The notes under the pieces are model-generated. The model did not search any database. It was not told the DNA's origin and was given only the letters and a program-made list of their open reading frames with translations. A stretch of DNA of 6,949 bases from Candidatus Zhuqueibacterota bacterium. Its GTDB lineage: Bacteria > SM23-31. The translations under genes and the position numbers were made by a program. Shown here piece after piece: positions 1 to 6,949 of the stretch. Each line of letters begins with the position of its first letter. Position 1 is the first letter of the stretch. The DNA lies in NCBI GenBank assembly GCA_022562855.1, contig JADFON010000095.1:1-6949 (forward strand). Reading direction: 5' to 3'.

Positions 1-59
1 TACAGGTAATCAAGCTAAAATAGCAAAAAGATTTTGTAGCTATATAAAAGCGACCAATT

Positions 60-716
60 TTACTTCCGCTCAATACGTTCTACTAAACCAACCCGTTTTA
101 TGATTTCTGTGACCAGGTAATCATTTTCAAGATAGGCATATAAATTTTCTCCGGGACAGGCGGTGCCGGCATAATCTCTGTGTCCTTTGAGTGTGGAGGG
201 GTCAATATCATATTCTTCGCACTGCCATGCCATTAAGTTGATTAAGGCTTCAAGTTGTTCAGGAGACGGTTTCGCATTTTCATAGTTGCCGATAACACAG
301 GTTAACAGGTGCCCGGCAGGGTCGTAGGTTGTGTTGGTATCACCCGCAAATACGGGATCTCTTGCTTCGTAAATAGTGCCGCCAGGGTCAATCATAAAAT
401 GATAGGGAATATCCATCCAGCCGCGTTCCTCTCTGCTCCAGGTTTGAAGGGTTCTCAAATAATCGGCAGTGTCACGGTCCTTGTCAAAGTCCTCACCGCT
501 GTGATGCAGCGTAATATAAGACAATTCATGTTTCCGGCTTTCATTAGTAGCGCGCGCGCTGCCCCACACATCCTTGGAGACTATTTCAACCCGGTAAGCT
601 GAATCTAAAACCGGCGATTTTTTAAATGTACCAATAAGCATGACAATGGAGCCGGTGATGAAAATAGCGCCGGCTGCCTTAGCGGCATATAATAAAAATT
701 TTGGTAAATTTGTCAT
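60..716 (-). CDS. Membrane-anchored N-acetylmuramoyl-L-alanine amidase (Amidase_2 / PGRP fold)
   Basis: A 218-residue protein predicted to cut the amide bond between N-acetylmuramic acid and L-alanine in peptidoglycan. Seen: a hydrophobic segment at about residues 9-30 with no clear cleavage site, so a signal anchor placing the enzyme in the periplasm. The catalytic domain spans about 45-195. Zinc ligands of the T7 lysozyme/PGRP family are recognisable as H71 (in ITLHHSG), H179 (GHRDYAG) and C187 (TACPG). Y105 (IPYHF) matches the conserved catalytic tyrosine, and T185 sits where active family members carry Lys or Thr. All key residues are present, so activity is expected. The start is the only Met before the hydrophobic segment; no Shine-Dalgarno sequence is visible. 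It is transcribed away from the amidohydrolase gene. Whether it serves remodelling, recycling or defence against other bacteria cannot be told from sequence. Confidence 0.9.
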   Translation of the reverse strand: MTNLPKFLLYAAKAAGAIFITGSIVMLIGTFKKSPVLDSAYRVEIVSKDVWGSARATNESRKHELSYITLHHSGEDFDKDRDTADYLRTLQTWSREERGWMDIPYHFMIDPGGTIYEARDPVFAGDTNTTYDPAGHLLTCVIGNYENAKPSPEQLEALINLMAWQCEEYDIDPSTLKGHRDYAGTACPGENLYAYLENDYLVTEIIKRVGLVERIERK

Positions 717-770
717 AGCGTCAAATGTATTTAGTTATTTGTTCAATCTAATTTTTCCTACCCGCGAGCT

Positions 771-799
771 AATATATATATGTACCAATTAATTTACAA
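771..799 (-). promoter_or_regulatory. Candidate promoter for the amidase gene
   Basis: On the minus strand TTGTAA (794-799) and TATATT (771-776) are separated by 17 bases, matching the sigma-70 consensus at 4/6 and 5/6 positions. This would start transcription near 764 and leave a leader of about 47 bases. The region is very AT-rich, so a chance match is possible. Confidence 0.35.
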
Positions 800-840
800 C
801 AGGTTTCAATAATTGGGCAAATTTATCCAAACAATTACCC

Positions 841-869
841 TTGACAAATGACTGGGATATTTGTAACTT
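841..869 (+). promoter_or_regulatory. Candidate promoter for the amidohydrolase gene
   Basis: A perfect -35 box TTGACA (841-846) is followed after 17 bases by TAACTT (864-869). A small inverted repeat, ACAAAT (844-849) and ATTTGT (859-864) with a 9-base gap, lies across the -35 box and spacer and could be an operator, though six-base arms are weak evidence. The leader to the ATG at 923 would be about 47 bases and contains the AGGAG ribosome-binding site at 912-916. Confidence 0.5.
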
Positions 870-922
870 TTTGTACTTAGTGCTAACGGAATTATCTCAA
901 AAAAAATATATAGGAGTATACA

Positions 923-2692
923 ATGCGAAAGGTTGCCATTTATGTTTTATCGGTTATATTCCTTGTTTCGATAAGTTCATGTTCAAGGGATGCTGCTGAT
1001 TTAGTTCTCAGAAACGGAAGAGTTTATACCATGGAAGAAAGTATGTCCTGGGCATCGGCTGTGGTTGTAACCGGCAATAAAATCACCGCAGTACTGGAAA
1101 ATGATGCCGATGCGGATGCTTATATAGGTAAAGGTACAAACGAAATCGATCTGAACGGTCGTTTCGTCATGCCCGGTTTTATAGATGGTCATACCCATTT
1201 CAGTGGCGCGGGCGCGCTTATCAATGGCGCTAATTTGCTGACGGTCTCGGATGATAACGGTCTGAGGGAAGAAATGACACGTGTTGTTGGAATTTTGGAA
1301 GGCGGAGAGTGGATATCCGGAGGACTTTGGGGTGCCTATGAAGAATGGGCGCTTGGAGCGGATGATGCGGAAAAAAAGAAAAGTGGAAGATGGGAACCTG
1401 ACCGGTCGGCAATTGACGATATAACCCAAAATAACCCGGCTTTTTTGAACAGCTTCGACCGGGCGCTGTATTTGGCAAATACAGCTGCTCTGAAAGAAGC
1501 CGGTCTGGAAAACGCTCCCGTTGAGGGGATGAAACTTGATGGAAATGGAAGACCGACGGGGCTGATTTACAGAGGTTCTCCTGCAATAGGAACGATAAAT
1601 GAAGCGAGAAGGAAAAATCCGAAATCGCCAAAAAGGATACTCGATGAGAACCGTGCGGCATTCAAGAGACTTCGTGAATCGGGTGTTGTAGAGGTCCACG
1701 ACAATACAAGTGATGAACAGATGCAAAGATACGTTCAACTGCAGAATAACGGAGAATTAACAGCGAGAGTCTGGATGAGACCGCATATTCCCTTTGCACA
1801 GGAATTTGTAGATAAAGGAATTAAAATGGGAACACATCCGGTAACGGGGGAAGTCGATAATTTTCTAAGATGGGGCGCATTTAAAGCACACATAGACGGA
1901 ATTATGGGGAATCATTCCGCATTATTCTTTGAACCTTATGATGACGAGCCGGACAATTATGGAAGATACAGGAACGATACCAGTGAAGACCCGGATTTCA
2001 AAATCGGCGATATGGAAAAATTATATACTAACATAAAAATCGCCTACGAAGGCGGATTTGTAGTTAATGTCCACGCGATAGGTACAAAAGGAACCGCCTT
2101 GATGCTCGACACCTATGAACGCCTGATGAAGGATATTGGTAAAGATTTAAGAGGATACCGTGTTATACATAACCAGGTAGTACGACCTCAGGATTTTCCG
2201 AGATTCAAACAGTTAAACGTGATCGCCGAAGTAAATCCGTATCATTTGTCGGATGATATGAGGTGGATGGAAGAACGAATCGGCTATGAACGTAATAAGG
2301 GAGCCTATGCTTTTAAGTCGTTTCTTGACAACGGTGCGACATTGGTATTTGGGTCGGATTGGCCGGGAACTTCAGCCGCCGAGTATCATGTCCATCCAAA
2401 ATACCTGCTGCACGCGGCGGTTAACCGGACAACGGTTAACAATACTCCCGAAGGAGGTTGGTATCCCGAGCAGAAGATCTCGATGCATGAATCGTTAAAA
2501 GCTTACACGATCAATGCGGCGTATGCTACGTTTGAAGAAGATGTTAAAGGGTCTCTTAAAGCCGGCAAGCTTGCCGATATAGTTGTAGTTGACCGGAATC
2601 TCATGGAAATCGATTCTAACGATATTCTGAATATGAATATCGATATGACCATTGTGGACGGGAAAATCGTTTATGACAGAAGCAAAAATTAA
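923..2692 (+). CDS. YtcJ-like metal-dependent amidohydrolase, predicted lipoprotein
   Basis: A 589-residue member of the Amidohydro_3 / YtcJ group (COG1574), which also holds N-substituted formamide deformylase. The N-terminus is a lipoprotein signal: MRK, a hydrophobic stretch, then lipobox ISSC with C20 as the lipidated residue, so it should be anchored in the cell envelope; many family members lack such a signal. Visible motifs: the metal-binding MPGFIDGHTH (H90, H92), a conserved lysine in GAFKAHIDG (K321), VNVHAIG (H384), VIHNQVV (H416), NPYH (H441), and GSDWP with the catalytic Asp D479. The C-terminal signature WYPEQKIS...AYTINAAYA and GKLADIVVVD (549-558) is complete. The usual IEHAQ motif is changed to VIHNQ and HAIGD to HAIGT, which may shift substrate choice. 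The start is fixed by AGGAG six bases before the ATG and by the signal peptide. The substrate cannot be predicted. Confidence 0.92.
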   Translation: MRKVAIYVLSVIFLVSISSCSRDAADLVLRNGRVYTMEESMSWASAVVVTGNKITAVLENDADADAYIGKGTNEIDLNGRFVMPGFIDGHTHFSGAGALINGANLLTVSDDNGLREEMTRVVGILEGGEWISGGLWGAYEEWALGADDAEKKKSGRWEPDRSAIDDITQNNPAFLNSFDRALYLANTAALKEAGLENAPVEGMKLDGNGRPTGLIYRGSPAIGTINEARRKNPKSPKRILDENRAAFKRLRESGVVEVHDNTSDEQMQRYVQLQNNGELTARVWMRPHIPFAQEFVDKGIKMGTHPVTGEVDNFLRWGAFKAHIDGIMGNHSALFFEPYDDEPDNYGRYRNDTSEDPDFKIGDMEKLYTNIKIAYEGGFVVNVHAIGTKGTALMLDTYERLMKDIGKDLRGYRVIHNQVVRPQDFPRFKQLNVIAEVNPYHLSDDMRWMEERIGYERNKGAYAFKSFLDNGATLVFGSDWPGTSAAEYHVHPKYLLHAAVNRTTVNNTPEGGWYPEQKISMHESLKAYTINAAYATFEEDVKGSLKAGKLADIVVVDRNLMEIDSNDILNMNIDMTIVDGKIVYDRSKN

Positions 2693-2763
2693 ATGCGTTT
2701 ACGAAAAACAGCAATGTGTAATGCAGTAAAATCTTAGGAGGTCCAAGAAGGCATATTTTAATC

Positions 2764-2800
2764 TTGACTAATTTTTATATTTTTTGTACTTTGATATAAT
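2764..2800 (+). promoter_or_regulatory. Candidate promoter for the Asn/Gln-rich protein gene
   Basis: TTGACT (2764-2769) is followed after 17 bases by TACTTT (2787-2792). A perfect TATAAT lies slightly further on (2795-2800), but 25 bases from the TTGACT. Either could be the -10 box. The stretch TTTTTGTACTT also occurs upstream of the amidohydrolase gene (868-878), which may hint at a shared promoter element, or may only reflect T-rich DNA. Transcription would begin about 30-40 bases before the ATG at 2840. Confidence 0.5.
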
Positions 2801-2839
2801 TACTATTCCTTATTAAAATAATATAAACGGGGGTAGTTT

Positions 2840-3412
2840 ATGGCTATTGGTGATGTACAAAACAGATTTGAAGCCGGAACCCAGATTACTCAAATTGGCG
2901 GAAATACCGGTCAAAATCGTCAACAGATCAGACCACCGGTACAGCAGGATAACCGGGTAAACGCATTAACCGATAATAATAACGACAATACTTTACTTGC
3001 CCGGAACACCGAGCCTGCACAGACCAACCAAAATCCGCCTCCTGACCAGTCGGCAAGATTGAACAGGCAGGATACCCTCGAAATTAGCGGCGGGGTGCAG
3101 ATAACTCAAAACAACGAGCCTGATTTTACGGTAACTGCTGCGACCGAAAACAAGAATGCCGGAGGGCAATCGGAAGATACCATACTTCTAAGTACGGATA
3201 ATAATTCGGGAGAAACGGAATTTACACCGGTTAAAGCTGAAAATCAGGATAATACGTTAGACCAAGCGGTTGAGCGGACAGCAGACGATCAAATATCAAA
3301 TATAGAGAATACTAACGCCGCAATTGCGGCTACTCCTCCCCGCCAAACTGCTGCAGCAAACGCATTAACACAGGAAAATCAGGTCGGTACAAGGCTTGAT
3401 ACTACTGCCTGA
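2840..3412 (+). CDS. Hypothetical low-complexity Asn/Gln/Thr-rich protein, probably disordered
   Basis: I do not recognise a family. The 190 residues hold about 26 Asn, 21 Gln and 25 Thr, but no Cys, Trp, Tyr or His, only two Lys, and no Met after the first. That composition argues for an intrinsically disordered chain. There is no signal peptide or membrane segment. Short motifs recur loosely: QITQ (15-18 and 87-90), NALT (41-44 and 174-177), and NDNTLL/EDTILL/QDNTL (48-53, 112-117, 137-140), suggesting decayed internal repeats. A run of five G (2829-2833) ends six bases before the ATG and is a poor ribosome-binding site. The open frame is long for chance, has a credible promoter, and uses codons like its neighbours, so I take it as a real gene. 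It converges with the small gene at 3422, nine bases away. A secreted, surface or scaffold role would be speculation. Confidence 0.7.
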   Translation: MAIGDVQNRFEAGTQITQIGGNTGQNRQQIRPPVQQDNRVNALTDNNNDNTLLARNTEPAQTNQNPPPDQSARLNRQDTLEISGGVQITQNNEPDFTVTAATENKNAGGQSEDTILLSTDNNSGETEFTPVKAENQDNTLDQAVERTADDQISNIENTNAAIAATPPRQTAAANALTQENQVGTRLDTTA

Positions 3413-3421
3413 TACGTCTAT

Positions 3422-3610
3422 TTATTTTAATTGGTTTTCCTGATAAAAAAACCCGTTACGGTATTCTTCGGCATATCCTAATGCAATCCAGTTAATAATT
3501 GCTTCGGAAAGCGTGATAGAGCGTTTTCTCGAATTTTTTAACTTGCTCTGAAAGGAAAAAATTGCCTCTATTTGATTATCGCTAAAGGAACTTTGTGTAT
3601 GAATTGCCAT
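3422..3610 (-). CDS. Hypothetical 62-residue protein
   Basis: A small gene whose reality rests mainly on a good Shine-Dalgarno sequence, AAGGGAG, five bases before the ATG on the minus strand. The product is soluble-looking: a possible helix at about 9-24, a basic turn (SRKRS, 28-32), then an amphipathic helix with the segment SEAIINWIALGYAEEYR (about 35-51). The size and the helix-basic turn-helix pattern recall small DNA-binding proteins, but no ribbon-helix-helix or helix-turn-helix signature is clear enough to name. There is no Cys and no signal peptide. It converges with the Asn/Gln-rich gene with only nine bases between stops and no visible terminator, so the transcripts probably overlap at their 3' ends. 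It is not paired with another small gene, so a toxin-antitoxin role has no support here. Confidence 0.6.
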   Translation of the reverse strand: MAIHTQSSFSDNQIEAIFSFQSKLKNSRKRSITLSEAIINWIALGYAEEYRNGFFYQENQLK

Positions 3611-3813
3611 AATAACTCCCTTTGATGTAAGGTTTACGTTATAAATTGCAAATTCAATGCCAGTATTTCCATTTTGAGCTAATAGCAGGATTATTCAATC
3701 ATAATTACAGTATGAAGAGATAGTTTATTATACTATTATCATCGTCTTGCTGAATGAGAAAAATTAATTTAAGTAGAAAAAAAATATCCTATTAAGCTGG
3801 AATATAATAGATA
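3611..3813. other. Divergent intergenic region without a clear regulatory site
   Basis: This 203-base AT-rich gap separates the small minus-strand gene from the degenerate HD-GYP gene and should hold promoters for both. The only good -10 match near the plus-strand gene is TATAAT at 3803-3808, just five bases before its ATG, with no -35 partner at the right distance (an A-rich run lies there). If it is used, the transcript would begin at or beside the start codon. A further TATACT (3729-3734) also lacks a convincing -35 box. Confidence 0.3.
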
Positions 3814-5151
3814 ATGATCGTAAATCCCGATTCCATAGAATTCGAAAGCCTGGATGATCTTTGTATTTTTGTCAGGTATAACTCGAAGAACAGTAAATCA
3901 GTACCGGCGGGATATATCCTTGCCGAAGACCTGATGAATAACAAAGGAGGGGTATTATATGCTAAGGATACCGAACTCGATGCCGCCCGAATAACTCGAC
4001 TTCTTCGAATTCTCGAAAACAACCCGGAAATTAAACCCTCATTTTTTATTAAACTCAATGATATTGTCCTGAAGATCGAACATGGGAAGATTTTAGCAGC
4101 ATTAATCCGGTTAATAGAATCTAAAGCCAGTCGGAAAGTATACGCAAAGTTGATGTTTTCAGTCAAAACATTGATTGAATCGAGAATAAATGATATTCTA
4201 AAAGAGCCGGAGATAATTCTCTATATTAGCAAACTGAAATTTCTTGAAGACAAGTCGAAAAAATCAACTATTAATCCGTTTTATAATCATACCCTGAACT
4301 CTCTTATCTTTTCAATGGGGATTACAGCGAACCTGATTGAATCAAACCAAGAAAAATTTGAACCAAAAGAAATTGGTGAGATAGGATTAGTCGCGCTTTT
4401 GCAAAATTCCGGAGGCTGGGAAACAAGCGGGCAATTTATGGATTTGCCGGTTGAAGAACGCAAGAAAAAGTTTATTGCGGCGAATGAAAAAAATCAAAAC
4501 AATTTACAAATGTATAATGTGAAATCGGAGGTATTGGAGGCGATAGATTATTGTTACGATTTCCAGACAGGTAATTTTGATTTTTTTCAAGATGATACTA
4601 AAACTGCAATGTACGCCAAAATCGCTTGTGTAGGAGGCATCTTCAATGAAGCGATAGCGGGATTATGGGGATCCGCCAGGGCTCCAAGAGAAGTAATTGA
4701 CAGTTTATATTTACAGGCTCAGGCAAACAAAATTCCAAAGTCGCTGGTCGATGCTCTGGCAAAAGGTTTGAAATTTAATGACCTTTTCGACTTTTACCGT
4801 GAATTGGAAGTCCTGAATAATCTCTGCAAAAGAGATTCCGGGAAAGCTTATCCCATGACCGGATTCAAAAGCCCGGTAATATTTGTGTGTCAACACAACC
4901 TGTATGATTGCAAAGAATTTGTTGCCAGCGCTAAATCAATAACAGTGTTTAAGGAAATGGGTGGTCTTGAAGAAGGTTCTTACGGAAGGTGCGAGGGTTT
5001 GTCAGACAAATTAATAGATTTTTATGAAGGTCATTACAAAGAGATAAAAGACGACGTGACATCGAAGAAGTTAAAATCGGGGACTAAGGAAGACAATAAT
5101 TCTGTGGAGGAAGCATCAGACGAAAAGGATAATGAATCTAAAGATACGTAA
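3814..5151 (+). CDS. Degenerate (probably non-catalytic) HD-GYP domain protein
   Basis: A 445-residue soluble protein. Residues 31-66 (PAGYILAED...GGVLYAKDTEL...RITRLLRI) match the conserved region found before many HD-GYP phosphodiesterase domains. Residues about 155-320 can be read along that domain: H159 for the first His; IGLVALLQNSGG (189-201) where active enzymes have IGL..LLHDIGK; VLEAIDYCYDFQTG (240-253) for the HHE..DG..GYP region; AKIACVGGIFNEA (268-280) for ARI.AVAD.FDA; and a trailing SLVDAL. Thus HD is replaced by QN (197-198), HHE by YCY (246-248) and the later Asp by G275; only H159 seems kept. Hydrolysis of cyclic di-GMP is therefore unlikely; a binding or scaffold role is inferred. 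A C-terminal region has CQHNLYDC (359-366), C393 and H407, then a charged tail from about 408. No ribosome-binding site is visible. An HDOD-like origin is the main alternative. Confidence 0.72.
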   Translation: MIVNPDSIEFESLDDLCIFVRYNSKNSKSVPAGYILAEDLMNNKGGVLYAKDTELDAARITRLLRILENNPEIKPSFFIKLNDIVLKIEHGKILAALIRLIESKASRKVYAKLMFSVKTLIESRINDILKEPEIILYISKLKFLEDKSKKSTINPFYNHTLNSLIFSMGITANLIESNQEKFEPKEIGEIGLVALLQNSGGWETSGQFMDLPVEERKKKFIAANEKNQNNLQMYNVKSEVLEAIDYCYDFQTGNFDFFQDDTKTAMYAKIACVGGIFNEAIAGLWGSARAPREVIDSLYLQAQANKIPKSLVDALAKGLKFNDLFDFYRELEVLNNLCKRDSGKAYPMTGFKSPVIFVCQHNLYDCKEFVASAKSITVFKEMGGLEEGSYGRCEGLSDKLIDFYEGHYKEIKDDVTSKKLKSGTKEDNNSVEEASDEKDNESKDT

Positions 5152-5346
5152 ATAGTACATACATTAACGCATGAAAAAAATCAAACAATATTTATCAAAA
5201 TCCCGCCATTAGATTGTCCGCATTATTTCCAACGTTTTTGCGAATTTATTCAATCCTTTCCACCTGTATTTATTGGAGTTTACCCACAAATATTTCCTGC
5301 CTGAATTACCAACCGAAATATAATTAACCTTTCTCAATCTTTTTTC
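5152..5346. other. Intergenic region, nothing convincing seen
   Basis: These 195 bases between the HD-GYP-like gene and the promoter of the TPR gene hold no credible gene, RNA or terminator. A 13-codon frame at 5171-5212 continues after its TAG for 36 more open codons to 5323, which may be a decayed small gene or chance. Confidence 0.4.
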
Positions 5347-5375
5347 TTGACTAAGCTGTTTGTATGTGTTATTTT
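5347..5375 (+). promoter_or_regulatory. Candidate promoter for the TPR gene
   Basis: TTGACT (5347-5352) and TATTTT (5370-5375) are separated by 17 bases, giving a likely transcription start near 5382 and a leader of about 22 bases before the ATG at 5404. This competes with another reading: the TTG at 5347 is in frame with the gene, and starting there would add a hydrophobic segment (LFVCVILVVYF) resembling a signal peptide. Confidence 0.45.
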
Positions 5376-5403
5376 AGTGGTGTACTTCAACACAATAGAA
5401 AAC

Positions 5404-6012
5404 ATGTTACTTGCAAAAAAGTACCACAAAACCACTCTTGTTTTATGTGGTACGGTAAAAGATTCACTCAAGAAGTACTTTGACAGATACATCGCTATAA
5501 ACCTTCCGGATGAAATTCATGCTAACGGAGTTTCAGCGATATTGAGTTGTCATCCGGAATTTGACAAAACGACCGATCACGCAAACTATGATGCTGAAAT
5601 AGAATTCTACAAAAGGGAGACGCCGAAAGTTTTAAAAAAAGCCCTTGAACAATATTTTTATAATAATCCTGACACAGCATATAAATTAGCTGTAGAAGCA
5701 AAGACAATTGCCGGGAAGAAAGGATTAGAAAAACTCCTCGGCTCATCTTATATAGGAATAGCAAATACCTTTTGGGTAAGGGGAGATTATCCCGCTGCGC
5801 TGGCAAATTATATGAATGCCCTAAAAGTATTTGAACAAATCAATCACAAAAAGGGAATAGCAAGTGCAAATTCAGGCATCGGCATTGTTTACCGCAACCA
5901 GGGCGACTACCCCAAGGCATTGAAACACTACTTTGAGGCATTGGAAATTGGGAAAGAACTTGGAGATAAAAGCAAAATAGCAGTCATCCTCGGCAACATC
6001 GGCATAGCGCTA
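5404..6012 (+). other. Segment 1: N-terminal part of a tetratricopeptide-repeat protein
   Basis: Residues 1-203 of the chimeric frame. Two full TPR units are clear, at about 114-147 (with RGDYPAAL) and 154-187 (with QGDYPKAL), set 40 residues apart. A weaker helical repeat precedes them (about 78-112, YNNPDTAYKLAVEAK) and a third begins at 194. Repeats with this pitch and wording (NIGI.Y...GDYPKAL..YFEALEI) are typical of the sensory part of Bacteroidota-type histidine kinases and adenylate cyclases; whatever output domain followed is missing. Residues 1-75 are unfamiliar. The base composition is like that of the genes to the left, so this piece probably belongs to the same genome. Confidence 0.65.
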
Positions 6013-6949
6013 TACGCCTGGAACAAGCTATTCGGCGAGACACCTCGTGGGCCCGACCGAGGAGCCCCCTTTGTGTGGGGTGAGGCGCTGTCTTACGCCG
6101 GTGTGAATGCCGCGTACGGATTGCTCACCCAGTTGGAGCGTCTGACCATCCCTAAGGTACTGACACTCGATGAGCTGGCGACTTTCGCGGTCTTAGCCGC
6201 CATCGTGGGCTCTCCTTACCGAATGCTCCAGCTGGGAGTGGGTTATACCCTTTTTCCGCGTCTGCGGGCCACCACCACCATCTCCGAACGCCGACGCTTG
6301 ATTTGCCGGGAGGGGTTAATAGTCGCCGCTGCGGGTGCGCTGGTGACGCTGGGCGTGTATGTGGCCTGCGTGAGTCTGCTGCCCGTTGTCCTGCTGTATT
6401 GTCCTGAGCGCTGGTTGCAGCGGCAGACGCTTTTTGACGCTCCGGTACGCCGCCTGGCGCCCCGTATCGAACGTCAGGGTACCGTGTTGACAGTAGCGGC
6501 AATCAGCCTCGCGCTACTCGCCGCCATCGGTGCGAGTCGGCTTGAGTTAACGAGTGACAATAACAAGCTCGAAACCAGGGGGCTGATATCGCGTGACCTT
6601 CAGGATCGCATCGCCGAGGAGCACAATCTGAGTACGTCGCCACTGCTGCTGCTGTTTGCCAATGCGGGTGACAGCCATGAATTGCTTGCCGCCGATGAAC
6701 GGCCAGCTGAATTCAGCTCGATTTTCGATGTCCGCGAGGTTGACGGATTATTGCAAATCCATACTGTTTCGAATCCATTCCTGCGCAATGAGTTCGGGCG
6801 CATCGTCGCATTGCTGCATGACTGGATTGATAGCGAAGGCCTTGGCGAATGGCAGCTCAGTGGTGCTCCGGCACTCAACGCACGAATTGACGAATTGCTG
6901 GGCAAAGATGTTTCAATGGTGCTGCCCATCGCAGGCCTCGCAATATTTC
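5404..6949 (+). CDS. Chimeric open frame: TPR protein / flippase fragment / MMPL-type exporter fragment (3' partial)
   Basis: One frame stays open for 515 codons and leaves the window without a stop. Its protein is three unrelated pieces: TPR repeats (to about residue 203), an internal flippase-like segment (about 204-320) and the second half of an exporter (about 323-515). The third TPR repeat is cut off after NIGIAL, exactly where base composition rises. Neither membrane piece has its own start or a complete domain. Codon use changes from A/T-ending to strongly CTG/GCC/CGC-type. I infer a chimeric sequence rather than a working fusion protein; both joins staying in frame has roughly a one-in-nine chance if random. 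The ATG at 5404 lacks a Shine-Dalgarno sequence; in-frame TTG 5347 and GTG 5377/5380 are other possible starts. The three segments are described separately. Confidence 0.6.
   Translation, partial: MLLAKKYHKTTLVLCGTVKDSLKKYFDRYIAINLPDEIHANGVSAILSCHPEFDKTTDHANYDAEIEFYKRETPKVLKKALEQYFYNNPDTAYKLAVEAKTIAGKKGLEKLLGSSYIGIANTFWVRGDYPAALANYMNALKVFEQINHKKGIASANSGIGIVYRNQGDYPKALKHYFEALEIGKELGDKSKIAVILGNIGIALYAWNKLFGETPRGPDRGAPFVWGEALSYAGVNAAYGLLTQLERLTIPKVLTLDELATFAVLAAIVGSPYRMLQLGVGYTLFPRLRATTTISERRRLICREGLIVAAAGALVTLGVYVACVSLLPVVLLYCPERWLQRQTLFDAPVRRLAPRIERQGTVLTVAAISLALLAAIGASRLELTSDNNKLETRGLISRDLQDRIAEEHNLSTSPLLLLFANAGDSHELLAADERPAEFSSIFDVREVDGLLQIHTVSNPFLRNEFGRIVALLHDWIDSEGLGEWQLSGAPALNARIDELLGKDVSMVLPIAGLAIF
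5421..5453 (+). repeat. Perfect inverted repeat / hairpin at the 5' end of the TPR frame
   Basis: GTACCACA (5421-5428) pairs with TGTGGTAC (5446-5453), and the stem extends with AAAC (5429-5432) against GTTT (5440-5443), leaving a two-base bulge (5444-5445) and a seven-base loop. It covers codons 7-17 of the frame as called. It is not followed by a T-run, so it is not a standard terminator; it may be a translation-control hairpin, a protein-binding palindrome or chance. Confidence 0.45.
6013..6369 (+). other. Segment 2: internal fragment resembling a polysaccharide/O-antigen flippase
   Basis: Residues about 204-322 of the chimeric frame. The text EALSYAGVNAAYGLL, then IPKVLTLDELATFAVLAA and GSPYRMLQLGVGYTLFPRL (about 227-287), resembles the middle of Wzx-type polysaccharide transporters of the MOP superfamily, which move lipid-linked sugars across the inner membrane. 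Hydrophobic stretches lie near 230-243, 257-283 and 304-322. At under 120 residues this is far below the 400 or more of a complete transporter, and both ends are missing. High G+C (39/60 at 6061-6120) sets it apart from the TPR part. Family assignment is from recall of the sequence pattern and is moderate. Confidence 0.45.
6370..6949 (+). other. Segment 3: C-terminal-half fragment of an MMPL/RND-type exporter
   Basis: Residues about 323-515 of the chimeric frame. The order fits the second half of an MMPL-family predicted exporter (COG4258-like): the end of a membrane helix (SLLPVVLL), a basic cytoplasmic linker (LQRQ...RRLAPRIERQG), a helix at about 360-377, the extracytoplasmic segment beginning LELTSDNNKLE (380-390), a loop of about 125 residues, then SGAPALNARIDELLGKD (486-502) and the start of the next helix (MVLPIAGLAIF), where the window ends. 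In this family the loop before that helix commonly ends with a G-P-x-[IL]-N type motif, in keeping with what is seen. The six preceding helices are missing. Substrate unknown. Confidence 0.5.

Follow-up and report, generated by a model that had tools for sequence, protein, structure and literature searches.

Degenerate GGDEF and EAL proteins are textbook receptors of cyclic dimeric guanosine monophosphate (c-di-GMP), and to our knowledge only a few HD-GYP proteins that have lost catalysis have been studied. We were interested in such a gene at positions 3814-5151 (+) of a 6,949-nucleotide stretch of DNA (the window) from a Candidatus Zhuqueibacterota bacterium (assembly GCA_022562855.1, contig JADFON010000095.1, positions 1 to 6,949 of the forward strand), the product of which joins a dead HD-GYP core to a C-terminal module with four invariant cysteines (Cys4). 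The HD-GYP domain of DvhD from Desulfovibrio vulgaris (PDB 9RBZ/9RC0) is metal-free and still works as a c-di-GMP switch (PMC13090378). DvhD and, by sequence, the present family share an HD-GYP fold in which the HD and HH motifs are replaced and catalysis is lost; however, DvhD retains the c-di-GMP-contacting Lys, Tyr and Arg, which are missing here, and is a membrane dCache-PAS receptor, whereas the present family carries the Cys4 module. PA2572 from Pseudomonas aeruginosa, a YN-GYP protein, is likewise an inactive HD-GYP variant linked to a receiver (REC) domain, but there REC is fused and GYP is retained, and the accessible part of that report describes no Cys4 module (PMC3411652). In Leptospira, LIC_10122, LIC_10138 and LIC_10139 combine a DUF3391-like N-terminal domain, a central degenerate HD-GYP and an unannotated C-terminal domain; LIC_10122 was called fully degenerate, and its unexplained C-terminal domain (residues 325-433) consists of a long helix followed by two strand pairs (PMC12943098). 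This order of elements is that of the Cys4 module, a likeness by description only that makes sequence homology a lead, but no cysteine signature was reported for the three proteins (PMC12943098). Finally, SadB (PDB 9QZK) is a flagellar regulator with a non-catalytic HD fold and binds c-di-GMP (PMC6543031); SadB and other HDOD proteins resemble the present family as non-catalytic HD-fold regulators tied to flagella, but differ in their accessory domains and in the HDOD profile, which the family does not match. Dead HD-GYPs are therefore already known (DvhD, PA2572, LIC_10122), and the present family adds a variant with an invariant Cys4 module. We read the gene product as a non-catalytic signalling adaptor or switch with an HD-GYP fold and a Cys4 C-terminus, acting in motility or phosphorelay signalling, and put the probability of this reading at roughly 0.55.

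The gene is an intact open reading frame with an ATG start and encodes 445 amino acids, which divide as follows (pLDDT, predicted local distance difference test).

3814..5151, + strand: whole gene of the degenerate HD-GYP/Cys4 protein, 445 amino acids (open reading frame; paralogues C224 and C113; orthologue L006)
3814..4059, + strand: N-terminal module, residues 1-82, carrying the motif G-xx-LAED..KG..LYxKGTE, found alongside HD-GYP domains (aligned to intact HD-GYPs; pLDDT 87-95)
4060..4776, + strand: helical linker and degenerate HD-GYP core, residues 83-321 (profile match; VIA-align Z 11.7 to DvhD)
4777..5073, + strand: Cys4 module, residues 322-420, helix, four strands and long helix (invariant columns; separate model pLDDT 76)
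5074..5148, + strand: acidic tail, residues 421-445, predicted to be disordered (pLDDT under 50)

Plain searches with the protein found nothing among viral contigs or, also with a profile, among PDB sequences, and Pfam gave zero matches even at an E value of 1, so that the HD-GYP resemblance is invisible to simple search. Profile-profile alignment of the family with seven intact HD-GYP proteins (97.6% probability, E 3.7e-12, 254 columns) settles the homology and covers the HD-GYP region from the G-xx-LAED..KGTEL element upstream through the final helices, bearing out a resemblance that an earlier note, made from the DNA letters alone, had traced over the same region. An AlphaFold2 model built with 14 relatives (mean pLDDT 83) gave the HD-superfamily fold for which that note had proposed a structure prediction. 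Foldseek ranked the HD-GYP-type protein Bd1817 first, albeit at merely E 5.6e-3, and VIA-align of model residues 80-322 led to the HD-GYP of DvhD as best structural match (Z 11.7), with Bd1817 at Z 10.2, PA4781 at Z 9.8 and PmGH at Z 9.4. As HDOD-like structures score nearly as high, about 1-2 Z from the HD-GYPs (3i7a Z 10.7, 3p3q Z 10.3, SadB 9qzk Z 9.6), and such proteins also regulate flagella (PMC6543031), an HDOD-type non-catalytic HD-fold regulator instead of a dead HD-GYP has to be considered; taken alone, Z values of this size are borderline for a mostly helical domain. Against HDOD stand the absence of any Pfam match to its profile (PF08668) among 14 members, the inclusion of the N-terminal module in the alignment with intact HD-GYPs and a sister family that retains HD, HH and Asp, which together make this alternative improbable. 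The window protein has the HD-GYP fold over the five-helix core.

The N-terminal module also gave a match to the NosR response regulator model (NF053512), but membership was dropped, as the score was 14.9 bits against a curated cut-off of 400 and the N-terminal module alone was covered. Such sub-threshold matches were seen for window residues 26-70 and for L026 and L013. In these, the N-terminal module of the family lines up with the C-terminal end of the NosR model, which would fit a module able to move between the two ends of HD proteins.

Two further full-length copies (C224 and C113; 35% and 32% identity) are encoded in the same genome (an assembly of 2.5 Mb in 491 contigs, 80% complete), and related genomes carry as many as six copies each. 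Comparison with the nearest orthologue, L006 (57% identity), gave differences of 0.37/0.24/0.63 at the three codon positions and proportions of non-synonymous and synonymous differences of pN 0.30 and pS 0.85 (pS saturated), indicating purifying selection on the window gene. Decay of a single copy, which the loss of nearly all catalytic residues might suggest, is hardly credible and was rejected because of this selection and the family-wide conservation: the frame is open, full-length orthologues exist at 57% identity, and the loss is common to the whole family. Likewise, no close homologue with intact HD plus HHE was found, in agreement with the view of the earlier note that this is no simple decayed gene. 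The family is a real subfamily kept by purifying selection, not one decaying copy.

For the active site, residues were mapped from the profile-profile alignment with the seven intact HD-GYPs and counted across 22 aligned members of the family.

4288..4290, + strand: H159, the first His and sole former metal ligand left (kept in 21/22 members)
4402..4407, + strand: Q197-N198 at the position of the HD motif (profile-profile mapping)
4552..4560, + strand: C247-Y248-D249 at the position of HHE (profile-profile mapping)
4636..4638, + strand: G275 at the position of the later metal Asp (profile-profile mapping)

In addition, the later 'HP' His position is occupied by A/N near 222-224, the GYP loop is gone with D256 at the position of its Tyr, and the Lys after HD and the 'RPYR' Arg are replaced by G201 and G283 respectively. 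The HHE/GYP elements (HHExxDGxGYP) are kept in none of the 22 members, and the HD pair is intact in the L002/L010/L011 clade alone, where HHE and GYP are lost too. The mapping agrees with the earlier note on QN for HD, the absent GYP loop, Gly for the later metal Asp and H159 as only survivor; its loss of HHE also stands, although the letters given (YCY) were one residue off. Conservation of QN/YCY/G within a clade, in contrast, did not hold: L006 has VD, CFK and R where the window protein has QN, CYD and G, position 197 is His in 16/22 members and position 275 is Asp or Glu in 16/22. Because these letters change even among close relatives, the old catalytic pocket seems to have been freed of constraint and not remodelled to suit one particular new ligand. 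The near-constant H159, the frequent His and Asp/Glu at positions 197 and 275 and the HD motif of the L002 clade would fit a residual or altered hydrolase with a changed metal site formed by H159 and other residues, but the window copy has H159 alone, HHE is lost family-wide and the set of ligands is inconsistent, so that such an enzyme is very improbable.

A different reading is that of a receptor for c-di-GMP or another cyclic dinucleotide, in which the dead pocket would bind the nucleotide without metal and switch conformation as in DvhD. GGDEF genes, together with intact HD-GYP genes, were present in all 13 carriers tested, one family gene (L029) has a PilZ gene 40 bp upstream, and SadB is a precedent for a non-catalytic HDOD domain that binds c-di-GMP and controls flagella (PMC6543031). 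DvhD, however, contacts its ligand through K582, Y621, R650 and Y652, and the matching Lys, GYP Tyr and RPYR Arg are present in none of the 22 members: the Lys position is A/G/S/I, the Tyr position mostly D/E and the Arg position an invariant G. This argues against a c-di-GMP receptor at the usual site, as does the free variation of former pocket positions among close relatives. With DvhD, PA2572 and SadB as precedents, an adaptor and a receptor are both reasonable readings, and we regard the receptor as possible but unlikely. Of the earlier proposal of a ligand-binding or scaffold pseudoenzyme in a new subfamily, the pseudoenzyme on an HD-GYP fold and the real subfamily remain, and a c-di-GMP receptor at the usual site is disfavoured. 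Judged from these residues, metal binding by the core is lost and c-di-GMP binding probably is too, while selection acts on the Cys4 module, and a scaffold would be the most economical reading.

The earlier description ended at the last HD helix and left the most conserved region of the protein unreported. Residues 322-413 are the best-conserved stretch, with a mean pairwise identity per column of 0.47 compared to 0.27 in the HD core, and the Cys4 module (residues 322-420) follows the motif FDFYxE...C...YPxTGxxSPxxxxC..C...LxxGxYxRC..KLxxFYxxHYxxIK, in which four cysteines are invariant by family alignment.

4825..4827, + strand: C338
4888..4890, + strand: C359
4909..4911, + strand: C366
4990..4992, + strand: C393

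All four are found in 22/22 members, in the sister pair L049/L055 and in the very remote member L105. Their spacing (C-x20-C-x6-C-x26-C) suggests a structural zinc site, probably with one Zn. When a profile of the module was searched against 366 genomes, L105 was the sole match outside the family, and a weak one (E 2.1e-4); MutS-like fold matches to the module were discarded, as they reached Z ≤5.7, under the meaningful level of the tool. The Cys4 domain is missed by current family libraries.

The family has many paralogues and spans candidate phyla. Named carriers are bacterium SM23_31, KSB1 B21_G16, PL23a_bin.125, CSMAG, Glassbacteria, a Gemmatimonadales-labelled metagenome-assembled genome (MAG) and a Latescibacterota MAG, with G328 and G465 as a separate group. 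Carriage is sparse in places, with a match in 6/200 sampled genomes in the phylum of G061 and in 1/64 genomes in that of G064. Genome G070 has one family member and one gene of the sister family, which is represented by L049:811-2043 and L055:1405-2838 from Glassbacteria-type genomes and has the same N-terminal module, HD core and Cys4. This pair retains H..HD..H..HH..D without GYP and may be an uncharacterised phosphohydrolase, possibly still catalytic; a search with the sister profile, which is too thin at two rows, found no more sisters. The remote member (L105:424-1710 / L110:8349-9635; 429 amino acids) is fully degenerate, with QN at the HD position and all four Cys, and a plasmid search found no named relatives of it. 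Its genome is complete and unrelated, and there it lies one gene away from a trpS-scpA-scpB-rluB-like cluster; the window orthologue L017 (genome G002) has trpS, scpA, scpB and rluB-like genes downstream (names read from sequence in both cases), a synteny that supports common descent if confirmed.

At four loci (L003, L021, L024, L025) a family gene has a stand-alone REC gene 15-60 bp away, and at L025 two tandem family genes are located near FlaG, FlgM, FliD, FliS and FapA genes. Flagellin is encoded in 14/15 carrier genomes; in the phylum of G061 it is found in 5/6 carriers compared to 53/194 other genomes (Fisher p 0.008, shared ancestry uncorrected). We also count the PilZ gene of the L029 locus, and the GGDEF and intact HD-GYP genes of the 13 carriers tested, in favour of the adaptor. 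In the proposed adaptor, a receiving and dimerisation scaffold would consist of the N-terminal module together with the HD-GYP core, all-helical and free of metal, and the Cys4 module, most likely with one zinc, would offer the functional surface that touches a partner. For several relatives the input would probably be a phosphorylated stand-alone response regulator from the adjoining gene, and the output would be flagellar motility or c-di-GMP control of motility. What we infer is metal binding by Cys4, the lack of ligand binding by the core, the identity of the partner and which way the signal runs. Several points weigh against the adaptor. A residual ligand or metal site could survive around the near-invariant H159, zinc binding is deduced solely from the four invariant cysteines with a separate Cys4 model of moderate confidence, and the module has no solved relative, with no convincing PDB match by fold and none by profile against PDB sequences. 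The window copy itself adjoins neither a REC nor a flagellar gene, these contexts being those of paralogues, the Glassbacteria-type loci adjoin unrelated metabolic genes, and the flagellin association was computed without correction for phylogeny.

Immediate neighbours of the window gene include one possible partner of the family protein, as suggested by its recurrence.

2840..3412, + strand: 190-amino-acid low-complexity, Asn/Gln-rich protein, upstream neighbour (counterparts in L017, L018 and L019)

Across the window orthologue group (L017, L018, L019) this protein has 150-190 residues and 24-29% identity between genomes, and Pfam gave zero matches for the 190-residue protein. Further upstream are an Amidase_2 gene of the N-acetylmuramoyl-L-alanine amidase family (60-716, -) and an amidohydrolase gene (923-2692, +); in L017, too, genes in similar positions precede the family member. 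Downstream, 5305-6949 is a single open frame that passes from an AT-rich TPR region (GC content 34-39%) to a GC-rich stretch (57-63%), where no Pfam family is matched from about 6018 onwards. In L017, the orthologous contig, trpS comes next instead, and 5305-6949 probably contains a chimeric contig join.

On a wider view, which we offer tentatively and with less confidence than the adaptor itself, the family would be ancient and spread over several phyla, its HD-GYP fold having changed from a c-di-GMP hydrolase into a phosphorelay or motility adaptor anchored by a Cys4-bound metal, with LIC_10122-type proteins as a spirochaete branch and the sister family as a catalytic intermediate that has survived. 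The sequences form a graded series from intact HD-GYPs through a sister with HD/HH and no GYP and a clade with HD only to a fully dead clade, and one unannotated Cys4 module joins every stage except the intact HD-GYPs. With this series, the reuse of an enzyme fold as a scaffold can be put to the test.
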